From: Deltaproteobacteria bacterium
GTDB taxonomy: Bacteria; Desulfobacterota; DSM-4660; Desulfatiglandales; Desulfatiglandaceae
Assembly: GCA_013349725.1 (NCBI GenBank)
Contig: DUZB01000065.1
Coordinates: 5,623 to 13,323 of the forward strand
DNA: 7,701 nucleotides
Direction of reading: 5' to 3'
The notes under the pieces were generated by a model. The model did no database searches and was not told the origin of the DNA. It saw only the letters and a list, made by a program, of their open reading frames with translations. Below, piece by piece: positions 1,300 through 7,701 of this stretch (position 1 is the first letter of the stretch; each line of letters begins with the position of its first letter). A program made the translations under genes and the position numbers.

Positions 1300-1647
1300 T
1301 TAACAACAACCCGCGCTGAGCTTTCCTTTCGTTTCGGTCTTTTTCATTCCTGCATCTTCATCGGGTTCTATCACACAGCAGCAAGAAGATCCCTTCCGGC
1401 CTAAGGCGGAATTGATAACCGCTGCGGCACATCCCACGCCCGCCTTCACATACACAGCTTCCACCGGACAATTTCTGGCGCAGGCGCCGCATTCCATACA
1501 CAGGTCCCTCTGCTCAATGCCGGCGCAGCCGTTATTCATGGCAAACACCTGGTGGGGACAGACCGCAAGGCATTCACCACAACCCACACATTTCTCCCGG
1601 TCCAATTGAAGAGTAACCACGTCCCTCAGATAGATCAGACTTCCCAT
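1300..1647 (-). CDS. hgcB: HgcB, 2x[4Fe-4S] ferredoxin of mercury methylation
   Basis: HgcB supplies low-potential electrons to the corrinoid of HgcA and is thought to help bring Hg(II) to it. The 115-residue protein has two ferredoxin motifs: C20-x2-C23-x2-C26-x3-C30-P and C50-x2-C53-x2-C56-x3-C60-P. These are followed by 'GVGCAAAVI' at 70-78, whose Cys73 corresponds to the additional conserved Cys of the HgcB family, and a C-terminal vicinal pair Cys114-Cys115. That arrangement separates HgcB from ordinary bacterial ferredoxins. An extra Cys triplet (89-91) sits before an acidic and lysine-rich linker, and the protein is somewhat longer than the roughly 95 residues I recall for HgcB. The ATG at 1647 has AGGAG eight bases upstream (1660-1656), which touches the hgcA stop codon, so the two genes are tightly coupled. 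It is the last gene of the arsR1-hgcA-hgcB operon. Confidence 0.92.
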   Translation of the reverse strand: MGSLIYLRDVVTLQLDREKCVGCGECLAVCPHQVFAMNNGCAGIEQRDLCMECGACARNCPVEAVYVKAGVGCAAAVINSALGRKGSSCCCVIEPDEDAGMKKTETKGKLSAGCC

Positions 1648-1659
1648 ATTATATTCTCC

Positions 1660-2850
1660 TTAAACTGCGAACCGCGAACCTACCCACAGGCATAAACCAG
1701 CAATAGCTCCACCAATCTCCAGGGGTACCGCCCATTTCATCTCTTTTCTAACCCCTGAAAGAGAGGTGTAGGTGGAGGCGCCGGTAAAATTCATAGCCAG
1801 GTAGGCCGAAAGAGAGGGAATCAACAGAAACCATGCCAGAATTTCGGGCCAATCTCTCCAGTTGGTGAAAAACCCTGTCCGAAAGGCCGCAAAGAGGATT
1901 GCGGTAATCAAACCCATGATCAGCCCTTTCACTGAAAATGCCCTGCCGGGCAGCCAGGGCAACAGGATCGGCGTCAAAACAGCGCCGGAAGCCAACGCGC
2001 CCAAAAGGGAAAAGACGGCAAAGAGTCCGTAACGGAGCGTTCCTGACCAGAACCCGGCGTCCCCACCCAGACCGCCTAACAAGAAGAACCCCGGAATCAT
2101 GATCAGCGTCCATTTGAGGGCCCCCACCAGTTCAACGGGCACAAGAACGGTCCTTTCCCGGAGAGAGAACGTCTTTCGGCGCATTTCCGGCGTGGCCTTC
2201 ATCCCCGCATCCAGAAATGCGGGCAGATCCGCCGCATCAATGGGACCATAGATCGCCTTGAAGCCGGAAAGCTTTTTTACCTGGTAGGCCGCAACCCCCG
2301 GACCGGCAAGCTGCGGGAGAATCACCTCCCGGTGATCCACAATCCGATCCAGTTGACTGAACCCGATACGCCGAACCAGTTCTTCCGTACTGAAGGCGCC
2401 CTTCCCGGCCGCGCACCACACGTTTATGCCATCCGTATCAAGAACCAGCATCCAGGCGTTTCGCCCGGGAAGGGATTCCCGCAACCGGTCAAAGCTCATT
2501 TTGTAATTGGCCGTAATCAGAACGGGATCGGATTTTCCCGGGTTCCCTAAACCATAAAGACCCGGATCAACGGTATATGCCATTCGTTTGACACCCCACC
2601 TGGCCTTGAACGTTCCCCAGTGGTCCGCTCCAGCCAACGTTGAAGATATGCGGGGAACGGGACCCACGGCCGTAGAGACGGTTCCCGAGACAAAAGGCTG
2701 GTCTGTTGATGGGAGGCTCAACTGAGCCTTCTCTTTTGAGGGTCAGCAGCTGCCTGAAGGATTTCCAGAAGGAGGAGGCCCTATGGGGAAAAGGCCGCCA
2801 TTGATGCTGCCGGGCTTGACATCCACAACGTTTTTCGTTTCCAGATTCAT
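1660..2850 (-). CDS. hgcA: HgcA, membrane corrinoid protein of mercury methylation; probable selenoprotein
   Basis: HgcA carries a methyl-cobalamin and transfers the methyl group to Hg(II). The minimal frame starts at TTG 2721 (353 residues); with the TGA at 2745-2743 read as selenocysteine it starts at ATG 2850 (396 residues). In the short numbering the N-terminal corrinoid domain holds the family signature 'NVWCAAGKG' at 100-108, with Cys103 the expected cobalt ligand, preceded by 'VLITANYKMSFDRL' (67-80). From about residue 185 there are roughly five hydrophobic segments, and 'STYTSLSGVRKEMKW' near the C-terminus is also typical of HgcA. The extended arm is Pro/Gly-rich and would place Cys35-Sec36 next to each other. 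For the long form: the strong SD at 2865-2859, the start 14 bases after arsR1, the frame continuity and a SECIS-like hairpin. For the short form: AGAAGG just upstream of TTG. The HgcA identity is nearly certain; the Sec extension is likely but unproven. Confidence 0.9.
2714..2729 (-). promoter_or_regulatory. SECIS-like hairpin downstream of the hgcA UGA
   Basis: On the coding strand AGGCTC (2729-2724) pairs perfectly with GAGCCT (2719-2714) around the four-base loop AGTT (2723-2720). The loop begins 19 bases after the TGA. Bacterial SECIS elements usually have a short stem with the apical loop roughly 16-37 bases after UGA and a G among the first two loop bases; here the second loop base is G. 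The alternative TTG start (first base 2721) falls in the loop, so the structure could instead modulate initiation there. Confidence 0.55.
2743..2745 (-). other. Candidate selenocysteine (UGA) codon in hgcA
   Basis: This in-frame TGA is the only interruption between the ATG at 2850 and the hgcA stop at 1662-1660. It follows codons for PSGSC, so recoding would give a vicinal Cys-Sec pair and then PSKEKAQLSLPSTDQPF, leading into the recognised HgcA domain. If it is a true stop instead, positions 2850-2743 encode a 35-residue leader peptide ending in Cys. Deltaproteobacteria include many selenoprotein-rich species, which makes recoding plausible. The window itself contains no selA, selB, selC or selD. 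Confidence 0.62.
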
Positions 2851-2858
2851 CTTTTCAA

Positions 2859-2865
2859 CTCCCCC
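2859..2865 (-). promoter_or_regulatory. Strong ribosome-binding site for the extended hgcA start
   Basis: GGGGGAG lies eight bases upstream of the ATG at 2850 and begins on the last base of the arsR1 stop codon TAG (2867-2865). It is better placed and stronger than the purine stretch preceding the TTG at 2721. Ribosomes finishing arsR1 could restart directly here, which supports real translation from 2850 whether the product is a selenoprotein or a leader peptide. Confidence 0.7.
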
Positions 2866-3239
2866 TATTCCGACGTGCCGGACTCTCCACGGATAAAACT
2901 CTCAAGGAGATTCATATAATACTCAAAAACGCCATTTACTGTACAGTAGCAGACCCGTGGCCCATCAATCTCCCCTTGAACCCACCCTGTTTCCTTCAGA
3001 ATCTTCAGGTGCTGGGAAACACTGGACTGGGCCAGGGGGAAGGCATTCACAATATCTCCGCACACGCAACGCTGCCCGGCAGGTTTGTTTTCCAGCATTC
3101 GAACGATCTCTACCCGAACAGGATGGGCAAGGCCCTTGGACAGTTCGGAAAGACTCTTTTTCCTGCTTTCCAAAGAATTTCCCTCTGGATTCCCGCACTC
3201 CGCCAGCTGATTCATGCGCTGTAACATCCCTTCATTCAT
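2865..3239 (-). CDS. ArsR/SmtB-family repressor heading the hgcAB operon
   Basis: A winged-helix regulator of 124 residues, somewhat longer at the N-terminus than compact ArsR proteins. The fold is recognisable from 'LSKGLAHPVRVEIVRMLE' (33-50) and the recognition helix 'AQSSVSQHLKILKETGWV' (70-87), followed by the wing 'GEIDGPRVCYCTV'. Candidate thiol ligands are Cys58-x-Cys60 ('RCVCGDI', at the site used for As(III)/metal binding in ArsR) and Cys97-x-Cys99 in the wing; Cys15 lies in the N-terminal extension. The sensed ligand cannot be told from sequence, but arsenite, Hg(II) or an organometal fits the cysteines. The ATG at 3239 is preceded by GGGG five bases upstream, a modest site; an internal ATG at 3227 or 3215 cannot be excluded. 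It is the first gene of the operon, 14 bases before the extended hgcA start, and probably represses its own promoter. ArsR-like genes next to hgcAB are known in methylators. Confidence 0.9.
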   Translation of the reverse strand: MNEGMLQRMNQLAECGNPEGNSLESRKKSLSELSKGLAHPVRVEIVRMLENKPAGQRCVCGDIVNAFPLAQSSVSQHLKILKETGWVQGEIDGPRVCYCTVNGVFEYYMNLLESFIRGESGTSE

Positions 3240-3537: not shown

Positions 3538-3562
3538 CCATTAAATGCATATAGGAGCCACA

Positions 3563-3907
3563 ATGAAAGAATTTATTGAAGTGATGAAAGCCCTTTCCGA
3601 TCCCAACCGGGTCAGAATTTTGAAGATGCTCCAGCACCGCTCCATGTGTGTTTGTGAGATTCAAGCAGGACTGGGAATTTCGCAGCCCACCGTATCCAAA
3701 CACCTGAAAAATCTCGAAAGGGCGGGGTTGGTTTCTTTTGAGAAAGACGGCCTATGGGTAAACTATTTTCTCGCTGATGGGCGTAAAAGTCCATACGCTG
3801 GAGTCCTTCTTGGGAACCTGAGACACTGGCTTGAAGACGACGAGGCTGTTTCGCTGCTTCTCGGAAAACTTCCCGAAATACGAAGAGAAAAAATCTGCAA
3901 AAAATGA
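3563..3907 (+). CDS. ArsR-family metal/metalloid-responsive repressor
   Basis: A compact winged-helix regulator of 114 residues when started at the ATG at 3563, which has AGGAG five bases upstream (3553-3557). An in-frame ATG at 3545 has no such site and sits about where transcription begins. The helix-turn-helix is clear: 'MKALSDPNRVRILKML' (8-23) and 'GISQPTVSKHLKNLERAGLV' (38-57). 'MCVCEI' places Cys29 and Cys31 at the alpha-3 thiol site of classical ArsR (ELCVCDL), and Cys112 lies near the C-terminus as a possible third ligand, so arsenite or another soft-metal species is the probable inducer. It is distinct from ArsR1, which has a different length and wing and an extra wing Cys pair. It is divergent from the hgcAB operon and precedes the permease by 101 bases, so it probably controls the permease-thioredoxin cluster and itself. 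Confidence 0.9.
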   Translation: MKEFIEVMKALSDPNRVRILKMLQHRSMCVCEIQAGLGISQPTVSKHLKNLERAGLVSFEKDGLWVNYFLADGRKSPYAGVLLGNLRHWLEDDEAVSLLLGKLPEIRREKICKK

Positions 3908-3927
3908 TTTTTTTTGCGCGTAATACA

Positions 3928-3956
3928 TTGACATATAGTTATTTATAGATTGTTAG
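3928..3956 (+). promoter_or_regulatory. Possible secondary promoter/operator before the permease gene
   Basis: TTGACA (3928-3933) is present, but the hexamer 17 bases further (TGTTAG) matches the -10 consensus poorly. The stretch between is AT-rich and holds a repeated TATAG (3934-3938 and 3944-3948) plus the ACATATA element also found at the arsR2 promoter. It may be a weak promoter with an ArsR site, or only an operator remnant. Low confidence. Confidence 0.3.
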
Positions 3957-4008
3957 TGCGGCTACCTGGGCGCAAGAATGGTGCCTGCTGGTGAAAGGAG
4001 TCTGAATC

Positions 4009-5181
4009 GTGAAGGAACGTTGGAAACTGCTGATTATTGTGCTGACATTTGTCGCGGCCTATTATGTACCCTGGGCGGATCCGGTTATTCGCCGGTCCGG
4101 TCTGGAGGCCTTTCTGATGCTCCAAGAATATGCCAGGGAACACGTGTTGACTTGCCTCATTCCCGCATTTTTTATTGCGGGGGCTATTGCTGTATTTGTG
4201 TCCCAGGCATCGGTTCTTAAATATTTCGGGGCCACGGCCAAGAAAATCCTCTCCTATTCGGTGGCTTCAATTTCTGGAACCGTGCTGGCGGTCTGTTCCT
4301 GCACCGTGTTGCCCCTTTTTGCGGGGATTTATACGCGGGGCGCCGGTATCGGCCCGGCCACGGCTTTTCTCTATTCAGGCCCAGCCATTAACGTGTTGGC
4401 TATCGTGCTAACAGCCAGGATACTTGGATGGCAATTGGGGCTTGCCAGGGCTATCGGCGCGGTCTTTTTTGCGGTCGTCACCGGTCTGCTTATGGCCTTT
4501 ATTTTTCGGAAGGACGACGCTGCAAGGGCCAAAGGGGAGATCTTCCTGCCGGAAGACGAGGGACAGGGACGGACCCTTGCCCAGGATGGGCTCTTCATGC
4601 TTACGATGGTGCTCATTCTGATCTTTGCCGCCTTTGCCAGACCGGCCGAAGGCTCAACCGGTGTTTGGCCGTTCATATTCGCCGCCAAATGGTACATCAC
4701 CGCCGGGCTCCTGGTCATTTTAGGGTTTATGCTGAAAGCCTGGTTCGTCAAAGAGGAACGGGTCACCTGGGTCCAGTCCACCTGGGGATTCATGAAACAG
4801 ATCTTTCCGCTCCTTGGCGCGGGCGTCCTGGTGGCGGGTTTTATGCTGGGAAGGCCCGGACATGCCGCCCTGATCCCCGACCAGTATATTGAAGGACTCG
4901 TGGGGGGGAATTCCCTCTGGGCCAATCTCTTTGCTTCGGTCTCCGGAGCCCTCATGTACTTTGCCACCCTTACGGAGGTGCCGATTCTTCAGGGGCTCCT
5001 CGGCGCCGGCATGGGCAAAGGACCAGCTCTCAGTCTGCTTTTGGCAGGACCCGCCCTCTCGCTTCCCAACATGCTGGTAATCGGAGGAATCATGGGAGCG
5101 AAAAAGACAGCGGTTTTCTGCGGCATTATTGTGGTTTTATCGACCATTGCCGGGATGATCTTTGGTTGGATTGCAGGATAA
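4009..5181 (+). CDS. DUF318/ArsP-type permease
   Basis: An integral membrane protein of 390 residues with about eight to ten hydrophobic segments, split by a charged cytoplasmic loop around residues 167-192. It matches the permease family PF03773 (DUF318), which includes ArsP, an efflux permease for trivalent organoarsenicals. Visible hallmarks are 'VCSCTVLPLFAGIYTRGAGIGPATAFLYSGPAINVLA' split over residues 95-132, with Cys96 and Cys98 in the membrane as candidate metal or metalloid ligands, and 'LTEVPILQGLLGAGMGKGPA' near 321-340 with the following 'AGPALSLPNM'. The GTG at 4009 has AAAGGAG eight bases upstream. The next gene, a small thioredoxin, begins 18 bases after the stop; this permease-plus-CxxC pairing is frequent in the family. 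Export of a methylated or free soft metal is the likely role, but the substrate is not determined by sequence. Confidence 0.88.
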   Translation: MKERWKLLIIVLTFVAAYYVPWADPVIRRSGLEAFLMLQEYAREHVLTCLIPAFFIAGAIAVFVSQASVLKYFGATAKKILSYSVASISGTVLAVCSCTVLPLFAGIYTRGAGIGPATAFLYSGPAINVLAIVLTARILGWQLGLARAIGAVFFAVVTGLLMAFIFRKDDAARAKGEIFLPEDEGQGRTLAQDGLFMLTMVLILIFAAFARPAEGSTGVWPFIFAAKWYITAGLLVILGFMLKAWFVKEERVTWVQSTWGFMKQIFPLLGAGVLVAGFMLGRPGHAALIPDQYIEGLVGGNSLWANLFASVSGALMYFATLTEVPILQGLLGAGMGKGPALSLLLAGPALSLPNMLVIGGIMGAKKTAVFCGIIVVLSTIAGMIFGWIAG

Positions 5182-5199
5182 AATTAAAGGAGGTAAAAT

Positions 5200-5433
5200 A
5201 TGGAAATTAAAGTGTTGGGTCCTGGCTGCCCCAAGTGCCAGAAAACGGAAAAGATCGTGAAGGAAGTTGTATCGGAGTTGGGTGTTTCCGCAAAAATCGT
5301 CAAAGTGACCGATACCATGGAAATTGCCAAGCATGGCGTTTTCGGAACCCCAGCCGTCGTGGTGGATGGTGAGGTGAAAAGTGTGGGCAAGATCCCATCC
5401 GCAGATGAGATCAAATCCTGGATTCAGAAGTAA
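5200..5433 (+). CDS. Small thioredoxin/glutaredoxin-like protein (CPKC)
   Basis: A 77-residue cytoplasmic thioredoxin-fold protein of the archaeal/bacterial mini-redoxin type (TM0996/MTH895-like). The active site is Cys10-Pro-Lys-Cys13 after the first strand 'MEIKVLGPG', and the conserved cis-proline is in 'GTPAVVVDGEV' (Pro51). It is at the usual length for the family. The ATG has an excellent AAAGGAGG site seven bases upstream. Members are often encoded beside DUF318 permeases, as here, and are thought to reduce disulfides or pass thiol-bound metal; the exact partner is unknown. The CxxC could chelate a soft metal as well as do redox work. Confidence 0.9.
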   Translation: MEIKVLGPGCPKCQKTEKIVKEVVSELGVSAKIVKVTDTMEIAKHGVFGTPAVVVDGEVKSVGKIPSADEIKSWIQK

Positions 5434-5462
5434 CCCAAAATAAAAAGAGAGAGGAAACGGAA

Positions 5463-5894
5463 ATGGCCGAAGATTGTTGTGCGACCAATGGAAATGTTAT
5501 GATCCTGGCCTGCGCGGGAGGTTCTAATGTGGGGCAGCTTTCAAATCAGGCTGCGGTGGAGTTGACCCAGGAGGGGTTCGGGAAAATATTTTGTCTTGCG
5601 GGCGTCGGTGGACACCTTTCAGGCTTTGTGCAGTCCGCCAGGGATGTGCCTCAAATGGTGGCCATCGATGGGTGTTCCGTCGGTTGTGTCAAAGCCATCC
5701 TGGAGCACGCGGAGGTCCCCTTGAAACAGTACCTGGTCCTGACGGATCTGGGGATCGAAAAAAACAAGAATTTTAATCTCGCAAGGGCGGATGTTGAAAA
5801 GGTCAAGACAGCTGTAAAGGCGTCGACCGGGGGAAGTGCTGCAAACGGGCAACCGTCCGGCAAAACGTCTTCGGGGAGCTGCTGCAACTGCTAA
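5463..5894 (+). CDS. DGC-domain putative metal-binding protein with Cys-rich tail
   Basis: A 143-residue protein of the DGC-domain family (PF08859, putative zinc-binding). The core runs from about 11 to 118: 'VMILACAGGSNVGQLSNQAA' with Cys17, 'IFCLAGVGGH' with Cys44, the name-giving Asp69-Gly70-Cys71 in 'VAIDGCSVGCVKAILE' with Cys75, and the closing 'LVLTDLGIEKNKNF'. Beyond the core is a flexible Gly/Ser/Lys tail ending in SSGSCCNC (136-143), and the N-terminus has a second vicinal pair, Cys5-Cys6. No signal peptide is seen. The extra thiols at both ends suggest soft-metal capture or transfer. It lies 29 bases after the mini-thioredoxin, preceded by GAGAGAGGAAACGG as a ribosome-binding region. 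Role in the cluster is inferred: cytoplasmic metal buffer or donor near the permease. Confidence 0.85.
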   Translation: MAEDCCATNGNVMILACAGGSNVGQLSNQAAVELTQEGFGKIFCLAGVGGHLSGFVQSARDVPQMVAIDGCSVGCVKAILEHAEVPLKQYLVLTDLGIEKNKNFNLARADVEKVKTAVKASTGGSAANGQPSGKTSSGSCCNC

Positions 5895-5922
5895 ATATTT
5901 CTCCAAAAAGAAAGGATAATTC

Positions 5923-6849
5923 ATGACCGGAAAACCGATGACATGGGGCTTGGCTCTTTTGTTGATCTCAGCCTTTTTCTATTCAACACCGTGGGTCCGA
6001 GATGCAGGGGCTGAAGGATTGCCTAGTGTAGAGGAGTCGTATCCAGGCCTGGCTACGGGATTTCTCAAGTCGGCCACACTCGCAGAGATGGACAAAGAGA
6101 CCCTCCTTCAGGGCGATGGAGTCGAGATTCAGGCCTCCTTTGCGGAGAAGGATTTTGGACAGGCACCGCCTGAGATTCGGAAAGGATTGGAAAAAAATAT
6201 GTTCTTCCTTCTGGAGCAGAAGGCGATCTTGGAGTTCATTAAACAGGATGCTGAAACCATGGGCATTTCAGTGAAGCAGCCTGAGCAAGAAATGGTTCGG
6301 GCATACGTGAACCAACTGACAAAGGATCTGACCGTAACCGAAGCCGAGATGCGCACCTTTTACGACGGCAATAAAGAGATGGTGGGCGACACGCCTTTTG
6401 AGCAGGTCAAGGGCAGCATTGAGCCGTTTTTGCTCCAACAGAAAAAACAGGAAGTCGTGGAGGCCCATATTGCAAATTTAGGGAAAGGGGCCCATGTGCG
6501 GCTGAACCGAGATTGGGTGAAAAAACAGGCCCAACTGGCCCTGGACAACCCGGTGGATCAGGCTCGCATGTCCGGCAAGCCGAGTATGATCGAATTTGGC
6601 TCTACGGGGTGTGTTCCGTGCGATATGATGCAACCCATATTGGAGAATCTCAGGAAGAAATTTCCGGATAAACTCAACGTGGTCTTCGTGCATGTAGGGG
6701 AAGATAAGATGCTTGGCGCCCGTTTCGGTATCCGTGTCATTCCGGTCCAGGTCTTCTACGATGCCAAAGGGAAAGAAATTTTCAGGCATCAGGGTTTTTA
6801 TGCGGAAAAAGAGGTGCTGAAACAGTTGAAAAAGATAGGGGTGGAGTAA
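5923..6849 (+). CDS. Exported SurA-N-like domain fused to thioredoxin (CVPC)
   Basis: A 308-residue protein with an N-terminal hydrophobic segment (8-20) and a plausible signal-peptidase site near 'DAGAEG' (27-32), so it should act outside the cytoplasmic membrane. Residues about 60-205 are helical and charged, resembling the N-terminal chaperone region of SurA/PrsA-like peptidyl-prolyl isomerases; I see no parvulin domain. Residues about 215-308 form a thioredoxin domain with Cys230-Val-Pro-Cys233 and 'IRVIPVQVF', giving cis-Pro274. The last 45 residues closely resemble those of the next gene's product, so the two thioredoxin domains are probably paralogous. AAAGGA precedes the ATG by six bases. 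Electrons would come from the CcdA protein encoded downstream. Substrate unknown; a thiol reductase keeping a surface or periplasmic protein reduced is likely. The SurA-like assignment is moderate. Confidence 0.82.
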   Translation: MTGKPMTWGLALLLISAFFYSTPWVRDAGAEGLPSVEESYPGLATGFLKSATLAEMDKETLLQGDGVEIQASFAEKDFGQAPPEIRKGLEKNMFFLLEQKAILEFIKQDAETMGISVKQPEQEMVRAYVNQLTKDLTVTEAEMRTFYDGNKEMVGDTPFEQVKGSIEPFLLQQKKQEVVEAHIANLGKGAHVRLNRDWVKKQAQLALDNPVDQARMSGKPSMIEFGSTGCVPCDMMQPILENLRKKFPDKLNVVFVHVGEDKMLGARFGIRVIPVQVFYDAKGKEIFRHQGFYAEKEVLKQLKKIGVE

Positions 6850-6853
6850 AATA

Positions 6854-7273
6854 ATGACAAAGAAAACACGAACCATAGCCCTTGGTGTGGTGGCCCTGAT
6901 GGGCATCATCGGTGTCTTGAGTTTCCAACTTTCCGGTCGCTCATCGGAGGAACCCACTCCATCAGATGCACAACCGGCCGGCGTTGTTCCGGTCAAGGGG
7001 ATGGTGACCATGGTGGATCTGGGCGCGGACTCCTGTATCCCATGCAAAATGATGGCGCCCATCATTGAAAAGCTCGAAAAAAACTATCGAGGAAAGGCGG
7101 CCATTGTTTTTATTGATGTTTGGAAAGACAAGGAACCGGCCAGGCGTTTCGGTATCCGCGCTATTCCCACCCAGATATTCTTCGATAAGAACGGTAAAGA
7201 AGTCCATCGCCACGTCGGCTTCATGGCAGAAGCGGACATTATTTCGCAATTAGAAAAAATGGGCGTCAGCTAA
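6854..7273 (+). CDS. Membrane-anchored thioredoxin (CIPC)
   Basis: A 139-residue protein with a basic start and one hydrophobic anchor (about 8-26), then a short Ser/Pro linker and a thioredoxin domain from about 45. The active site is Cys61-Ile-Pro-Cys64 ('SCIPCKMMAPIIEKLEKNY') and cis-Pro105 is in 'RFGIRAIPTQIFF'. The domain should face the periplasm. It begins four bases after the preceding stop, with GGGGTGGAG overlapping that gene's end, so translation is coupled. The C-terminal part is similar to that of the preceding fusion protein, including the shared 14-base stretch CGTTTCGGTATCCG, a sign of tandem duplication. Placed directly before CcdA, it is the likely direct electron acceptor of that membrane reductase. 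Confidence 0.9.
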   Translation: MTKKTRTIALGVVALMGIIGVLSFQLSGRSSEEPTPSDAQPAGVVPVKGMVTMVDLGADSCIPCKMMAPIIEKLEKNYRGKAAIVFIDVWKDKEPARRFGIRAIPTQIFFDKNGKEVHRHVGFMAEADIISQLEKMGVS

Positions 7274-7311
7274 AGGCGCAACCACCGCGAAAACGAGACT
7301 GGAGATCATTG

Positions 7312-7701
7312 ATGCTGGAAACATTTTTTCTGACCGTCAACGAATGGATTGCAGGCGGCACGGCCATTGCCGCGTTAGGTTGTTTTATCTGGGGCATGAT
7401 CAGCGTGGTATTCAGCCCCTGTCATCTGGCTTCCATTCCTTTGATCGTCGCCTATGTGGGCGGGCAGGAAACGCTCTTAAAACCGAGACAGGCCGCCTGG
7501 TATTCCGTGACATTCACCGTGGGGCTTTTTATCACCATTGCACTCATCGGTACTATCTGCACTTTGTTAGGTCGAATGCTCGTCTTTTGGCTGAATGGTT
7601 TCCGGAGTTCGCTGAACATCTGGATAAAATGGATGAAACCTACAAGCAAATGCGAACCATCGATGAAAAGACCTATCAATTCATCTGCTTCGCCCTGGCC
7701 A
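7312..7701 (+). CDS. CcdA/DsbD-type thiol-disulfide membrane transporter, C-terminally disrupted
   Basis: The ATG at 7312 has GGAG seven bases upstream. The first 90 residues are good CcdA (DsbD transmembrane domain, PF02683): a first helix around 17-34, 'VVFSPCHLASIPLIVAYVGG' (32-51) with the redox Cys37, and a helix 'SVTFTVGLFITIALIGTICTLLGRML' split over 65-90. CcdA carries electrons from cytoplasmic thioredoxin to extracytoplasmic thioredoxins, fitting the two genes before it. After residue 90 the frame stays open to the window end but turns into Lys/Ser/Trp-rich sequence unlike a membrane protein, while another frame becomes convincing coding sequence from 7581. The family is about 220-240 residues with a second redox Cys in a later helix, which is missing here. 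A deletion or assembly junction near 7575-7590 is the simplest reading, so this copy is either non-functional or an artefact. Confidence 0.75.
   Translation, partial: MLETFFLTVNEWIAGGTAIAALGCFIWGMISVVFSPCHLASIPLIVAYVGGQETLLKPRQAAWYSVTFTVGLFITIALIGTICTLLGRMLVFWLNGFRSSLNIWIKWMKPTSKCEPSMKRPINSSASPWP
7581..7701 (+). CDS. Carboxymuconolactone-decarboxylase-like protein, fragment
   Basis: This frame (+2 relative to CcdA) reads RLLAEWFPEFAEHLDKMDET and then KQMRTIDEKTYQFICFALA up to the window edge. The pattern of a charged helix, 'IDEKTYQFICFALA' and presumably a following CxxH helix is that of the AhpD/CMD fold (PF02627), whose members are thiol-dependent peroxidases or hydrolases. No ATG or ribosome-binding site precedes it. 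The only start in reach is TTG at 7587, so the true 5' end was probably lost at the junction with ccdA. The gene continues beyond the window. Family assignment from about 40 residues is tentative. Confidence 0.5.

Follow-up and report, generated by a model that had tools for sequence, protein, structure and literature searches.

A predicted selenoprotein form of the mercury methylation protein HgcA with a putative metal-binding N-terminal arm

The window, a stretch of 7,701 nucleotides from a deltaproteobacterial genome assembly, carries on its minus strand an hgcAB gene pair with a regulator gene directly upstream. The features on which the following analysis rests are:

1300..1647, minus strand: hgcB, encoding a dicluster ferredoxin with GVGC and a C-terminal Cys-Cys (NF040864, 118.9 bits; cut-off 99)
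1660..2850, minus strand: hgcA, full frame of 396 residues with predicted Sec36; ATG at 2850-2848, stop at 1662-1660, one in-frame TGA
2714..2729, minus strand: SECIS-like hairpin with a 6-bp stem (AGGCUC/GAGCCU) and the loop AGUU (2723-2720), 19 nt after the UGA
2719..2721, minus strand: TTG, start of a 353-residue form; eighth codon after the UGA, spanning hairpin loop and stem
2728..2850, minus strand: Pro/Gly/Ser-rich N-terminal arm of HgcA, predicted to be disordered in a structural model
2743..2745, minus strand: UGA codon, read as Sec, residue 36
2746..2748, minus strand: TGC codon for Cys35, the vicinal partner of Sec36, directly preceding the UGA
2859..2865, minus strand: GGGGGAG, a Shine-Dalgarno-like site 8 bases before ATG 2850
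2865..3239, minus strand: gene for an arsR-family regulator, directly upstream of hgcA (PF01022; NF033788, 57.7 bits; cut-off 55)

The profile search identified the product as HgcA (NCBIfam NF040863, 453.8 bits against a curated cut-off of 275). Its corrinoid-binding motif is GINVWCAAGKG, and Cys146 is invariant in a 48-row alignment. An earlier note on this DNA, made from the letters alone, had described a frame from ATG 2850 to 1660 with a lone TGA at 2745-2743, a Cys codon before it and GGGGGAG ahead of the start; all of these coordinates hold, and GGGGGAG (2865-2859) shares base 2865 with the end of the arsR stop codon TAG (2867-2865). The long frame places 43 residues ahead of TTG 2721, and the arm sequence around the pair reads ...PSGSC-U-PSKEKAQLSLP. 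The HgcB of the window has Cys in its GVGC motif and no Sec there.

We compared the locus with the best 80 genome loci matching HgcA, of which more exist; the UGA and arm counts are raw, with kinship among loci ignored. A UGA occurs at the place of Sec36 in 44 of the 80, one of them from Delta proteobacterium NaphS2 (L050). Its distance from the NVWC motif is the same as in the window in 38 of these 44 loci and within two codons of it in five more, and in the last (L033) unknown bases lie between. The codon immediately before the UGA encodes Cys in 36 of the 44. Among the 33 loci without UGA that have a readable arm, 28 carry Cys-Cys or Cys-x-Cys (one Cys-Cys in 16, two in 6, CxC in 6), four have other Cys and one has none; the remaining three of the 36 non-UGA loci comprise a further CxC arm (L079) and two arms cut at a contig end (L040, L047). 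Database proteins gave a consistent picture. Among the 120 homologues listed of 7997 matched, 109 are annotated to start downstream of the Sec36 place, and nine have Cys-Cys at the place of the pair, seven of which were aligned without a gap between pair and core; in P0097 the Sec place is occupied by a Cys with no Cys before it, P0017 has no Cys, and P0025 was placed by eye. Aligning HgcA N-termini, as the earlier note had proposed, reveals Cys-Cys or UGA at the place of the pair in homologues, and the upstream extension, whose absence from close relatives with a well-conserved start at 2721 would have counted against the reading of the note, is conserved in relatives. A search of viral contigs found no relative.

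The arm proved both widespread and variable across the phylum. In a sample of 395 genomes, HgcA was matched at an E value of 1e-60 or better in 115, with 117 matches; 114 of these were examined, G207, G297 and G327 being left out as cut by contig edges. The 114 loci divide into 44 with UGA, 65 without and five not readable (L132, L143, L144, L209, L214). In the class to which the genome of L001 belongs, one TGA occurs in 13 of 22 matches above 300 bits. Six automatic UGA calls (L134, L189, L210, L212, L216, L097) were dropped as upstream stops. Four N-terminal HgcA fragments were also seen: L111 runs into unknown bases, L112 is cut off where its contig ends, the CU arm of L113 continues into divergent sequence, and L114, also at the end of a contig, matches only distantly.

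In all 188 rows, known duplicates left out, there are 83 UGA and 96 non-UGA genes, to which L050 and L148 add two with UGA. The 83 UGA genes encode Cys-Sec in 68 cases, the reversed order Sec-Cys in four (L117, L136, L147, L150), a Cys within six residues in eight and no nearby Cys in three. Non-UGA arms fall into 26 with one Cys-Cys, 30 with two to four, 13 with CxC, 9 with other Cys and 18 with no Cys (29, 27, 13, 9 and 18 under a second, stricter start rule). The arm start was taken by rule as the first ATG, which misreads L177 and L201 under the first rule and L178 and L201 under the second; L178 and L201, counted among the 18 of the second rule, have Cys-Cys further upstream in the open frame, so that 16 to 18 of the 96 arms are Cys-less. 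Four Cys-only arms (L168, L174, L193, L208) have at least three Cys-Cys pairs (four overlapping pairs each, with CCC counted twice). The mean number of Cys per arm is 1.57 in UGA genes versus 3.16 in non-UGA genes (1.51 versus 2.83 under the second start rule). By rule, the core is preceded by fewer than 20 residues in 11 of the 96 non-UGA genes, a figure that includes two or more misread rows. A tree built from 180 core sequences requires 25 changes of the UGA label, at least five of which are forced by well-supported branches, the direction of change not being readable from the tree.

Downstream of the UGA, the hairpin of the window (-8.7 kcal/mol at a spacing of 19; -11.3 kcal/mol for the 48-nt fold) agrees with the bSECIS rules as listed in PMC13188914, namely a loop of 3-9 nt, a stem of 4-16 bp, a G at loop position 1 or 2, a distance of 16-37 nt from the UGA and an MFE of -7.5 or lower: the G is second in its AGUU loop, the stem has 6 bp and the distance is 19 nt. 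Covariation was assessed over 45 UGA sequences, comprising the window, 41 of the 44 UGA loci, and L082, L085 and L101. Over the six pairs, 92.2% of hairpin cells are paired, the loop G is invariant and in five of the pairs both partners vary; the outermost pair does not form in 20 of the 45 sequences. The covariation score of 0.247 was reached by none of 500 shuffles, and every slid version of the hairpin scores lower. In these shuffles, which do not remove the effect of relatedness, values as high as those observed occurred in 0 of 500 cases on four measures and in 2 of 500 on a fifth.

In the larger set the criterion was an uninterrupted hairpin with a G in its loop, a spacing of 16-37 and an energy of -5 kcal/mol or lower. 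It is passed by 76 of the 83 UGA genes versus 13.5 expected from shuffles, and by 18 of the 96 non-UGA genes versus 16.9 expected; seven UGA genes fail it. The commonest spacing is 19 nt (53 of the 76 passing UGA genes), and the distant CUGP group keeps the hairpin despite a sequence unlike that of the window. The mean z-score of the whole fold is -1.24 in 42 UGA sequences versus -0.03 in 32 others, and only -0.54 in 33 more distant UGA genes. Rfam at gathering thresholds gave no match in the window, which we took as uninformative for bSECIS. A sequencing error or a pseudogene was considered as the source of the UGA and rejected, because the codon recurs in 44 of the 80 loci together with a covarying hairpin.

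SelB scored over its cut-off in 72 of the 80 relatives' genomes, and the earlier note had named a lack of selenocysteine machinery in the genome as fatal to its reading. As a discriminating correlate of the UGA, however, SelB failed: it is present in 39 of 44 genomes with UGA and in 33 of the remaining 36, where no UGA was counted, and thus permits Sec insertion without telling the two groups apart. The tRNA-Sec search covered 42 of the 44 UGA genomes (L016 and L077 were left out) and exceeded the cut-off in 35, 33 of them with at least 68 bits. Each of the 42 genomes has at least one of SelB and tRNA-Sec, so that as far as relatives' genomes are concerned the machinery is there. Among 14 control genomes, SelB was over its cut-off in two and tRNA-Sec in five; given that controls also exceed it, tRNA-Sec scores near the cut-off, such as 47.0 in G031, carry little weight.

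Together, the conserved UGA, the Cys-Cys homologues, the covarying SECIS hairpin and the Sec machinery of relatives support the main proposal of the earlier note, that HgcA is here a Cys-Sec selenoprotein. With the hairpin at 2729-2714 as its signal, decoding of the SelB type almost certainly places Sec36 beside Cys35 at UGA 2745-2743; the insertion itself we infer from these sequence comparisons.

This kind of HgcA is already known. A review of 2026 lists HgcA under NF040863 with the motif CU, citing Haft & Gwadz 2023, and also lists an HgcB selenoprotein motif, GVGU (PMC13188914); a PNAS paper of 2024, citing the same work, describes certain hgcA and hgcB homologues as possible selenoproteins (PMC11588087). 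The earlier note had mentioned a tie between vicinal Cys-Sec proteins and organometal gene clusters without placing HgcA among them, and these two sources supply that link. The window holds a further example, of the same family and with the same Cys-Sec motif as the listed form, with no difference in kind established from the review's entry. The main text of the GOS paper of 2008 (PMC2398784, apparently reference 61 of PMC13188914) makes no mention of CO dehydrogenase, acetyl-CoA synthase, a gamma subunit or corrinoid, and the attribution to it found no confirmation there. What is added here to the entries of the review and the PNAS paper is the presence of the UGA in 44 of 114 phylum loci, the Sec-Cys reversal, the arms with multiple Cys-Cys (more than a quarter of Cys-only arms) and at least five changes of the trait.

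In the AlphaFold model of the single chain, built with the 48-row alignment, residues 1-41 have a pLDDT below 50 and are followed by the corrinoid domain, after which come five long helices (230-258, 267-295, 305-323, 331-359 and 364-395). These C-terminal helices match the five-helix transmembrane domain of HgcA and are putatively membrane-spanning. Residues 142-152, the region of Cys146, also fall below 50, and low pLDDT alone is therefore no proof that the arm is disordered. The biochemically studied HgcA of Pseudodesulfovibrio mercurii ND132 is alike in its corrinoid domain with a conserved Cys, its five-helix transmembrane domain and its partner HgcB, but differs in that the corrinoid Cys is residue 93, as numbered in PMC7305189, versus 146 in the window, with about 53 fewer residues in front, a difference that takes in the Cys-Sec arm. 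The large (gamma) subunit of CFeSP shares corrinoid-domain homology (PDB 2h9a, 4c1n, 4djd); the match is limited to HgcA residues 92-217 or less, leaving the arm and the transmembrane part unmatched.

The published HgcAB model offers a frame for what the arm may do. In the proposal of PMC7305189, HgcB ferries Hg(II) or CH3Hg+ on a disordered tail with a Cys-Cys pair, and the product is released by an exogenous thiolate, which might be a Cys of a protein. The HgcB tail resembles the arm in being flexible, in its vicinal Cys and in its proposed passing on of Hg(II) or CH3Hg+ (PMC7305189), and differs in belonging to the partner protein, at the opposite terminus, and in using Cys only. A Cys-Sec pair on a predicted disordered arm ahead of the corrinoid domain could likewise act as a flexible tether, whose selenol-thiol pair would bind Hg(II) and/or CH3Hg+ and exchange the metal with the Cys-Cys tail of HgcB. 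The arm might assist in passing Hg(II) on to the methyl-corrinoid; alternatively, it might take the product off HgcB at the release step. The role suggested in the earlier note, tight binding of Hg(II) by a flexible arm, would be compatible with this. That the arm is such a tether is, by a narrow margin over even odds, what we favour, both the metal binding and the step in the cycle being read from the comparisons above. The points that we counted towards it are the Sec-Cys order, the small shifts in position, the arms with two to four Cys-Cys, the lower number of Cys in UGA arms, the low pLDDT of the arm in the model and the Hg-carrying role proposed for the HgcB tail. Considering that Cys-less arms, about ten near-absent arms and the shorter HgcA of ND132 exist, the arm is not required for methylation generally, and we infer that it is accessory rather than essential. 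For the explanation as a whole, a selenoprotein HgcA with an accessory arm that putatively binds metal, we estimate a probability of about 0.6.

Vicinal Cys-Sec pairs can form a selenylsulfide. The pair might thus be a redox switch, or face a reductase and protect or reactivate the corrinoid, instead of serving as a metal ligand; vicinal pairs are compatible with redox control, and the window holds thioredoxin-like genes at 5200-5433, 5923-6849 and 6854-7273. However, relatives of these genes were found by tblastn in just three to four of the best 80 loci, many of which are short, and arms with two to four Cys-Cys, shifted pairs or CxC resemble the multiplication of ligands more than one defined redox centre. 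Given that order, position and number of the pair are all tolerated, a ligand tether is favoured over a precise redox centre, and we consider the redox role rather unlikely. A pair serving arsenic or another soft metal(loid) in place of mercury would fit the ArsR gene adjoining hgcA, the divergent block of ArsR, ArsP, ArsE-type thioredoxin and DGC genes in the window, and L011, where an ArsP 85% identical to that of the window lies beside hgcAB. The arm pair is widespread, whereas ArsP relatives occur in five and DGC relatives in two of the 80 loci, and a same-strand ArsR relative lies just upstream of hgcA in one of the 69 loci with enough upstream sequence, which makes an arsenic role improbable.

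Two further alternatives concern the start of the protein. If translation began at TTG 2721, the UGA would end a short frame upstream in the usual way, and the similarity seen ahead of the TTG would be incidental. The database starts downstream of the pair in 109 of the 120 listed homologues (of 7997 matched) agree with this, as judged from annotated proteins, but nine annotated homologues have Cys-Cys there, the UGA recurs in 44 of 80 loci, the hairpin covaries around an invariant loop G and ATG 2850 has a Shine-Dalgarno-like site. We regard such a start as extremely unlikely; with UGA 2745-2743 read as Sec, the 353-residue form would be a truncation. It is also conceivable that both forms are made, with Sec insertion giving armed HgcA and a stop at the UGA followed by a restart at TTG or GTG giving an armless protein, in a ratio set by selenium. 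In 49 of 84 UGA genes, GTG (26) or TTG (23) stands as the eighth codon past the UGA, and a start-type codon lies within 12 codons in 55 of 84 UGA genes versus 37 of 96 non-UGA genes. Yet 29 of the 84 have none within 12 codons, and conservation of the eighth codon needs no start function, since the SECIS loop at a spacing of 19 nt dictates this codon; we consider the production of both forms improbable. A bolder version, to which we likewise give little credence, is a selenium-tuned mercury tether that evolution has freely rebuilt, with one Cys-Sec or Sec-Cys pair or several Cys-Cys in a disordered arm. Given the GTG or TTG that the SECIS loop imposes at its usual spacing, failure of Sec insertion at low selenium might then lead to a restart and armless HgcA, and the supply of selenium would determine the form produced.

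Whichever step the Cys-Sec arm may serve, the protein that bears it is the maker of environmental methylmercury. If much of the phylum's HgcA starts with a Sec arm that is trimmed in databases, armless models and activity studies would miss a likely mercury ligand. Mercury and selenium are antagonists, and selenium supply would in that case be a testable link in this antagonism. The covarying hairpin and the switching among Cys-Sec, Sec-Cys and multiple Cys-Cys leave the role of the arm open to simple loss experiments.

Some observations on the neighbourhood stand apart from the arm. The divergent block at 3545-7273 encodes ArsR, an ArsP_1 permease, an ArsE-type thioredoxin, a DGC-domain protein ending in SCCNC and two thioredoxin-fold proteins. 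The five ArsP relatives among the 80 hgcA loci have their closest member, at 85% identity, in L011, and a conserved arsR or arsenic neighbourhood of hgcA, which we had considered, is not general among these loci. A rhodanese and YceI fusion (123-1160) is convergent with hgcB and had no counterpart in a tblastn search of the 80 loci. At 7309-7701, a pair of ORFs that overlap in different frames continues past the end of the window; the first, which may be frameshifted, has a weak DsbD/TsoB profile match far below the cut-off. Finally, at L011:11487-12137 an HgcB (NF040864, 118.1 bits) continues through an in-frame UGA (YCVEUGYLERA...) and ends in Cys-Cys. The extension is an Rdx/SelW-type domain with CxxU (PF10262, 46.5 bits, cut-off 22.6; TIGR02174, 38.5 bits, cut-off 34.2), and the gene apparently encodes an HgcB-SelW fusion selenoprotein, a type of Sec-containing HgcB other than the listed GVGU.
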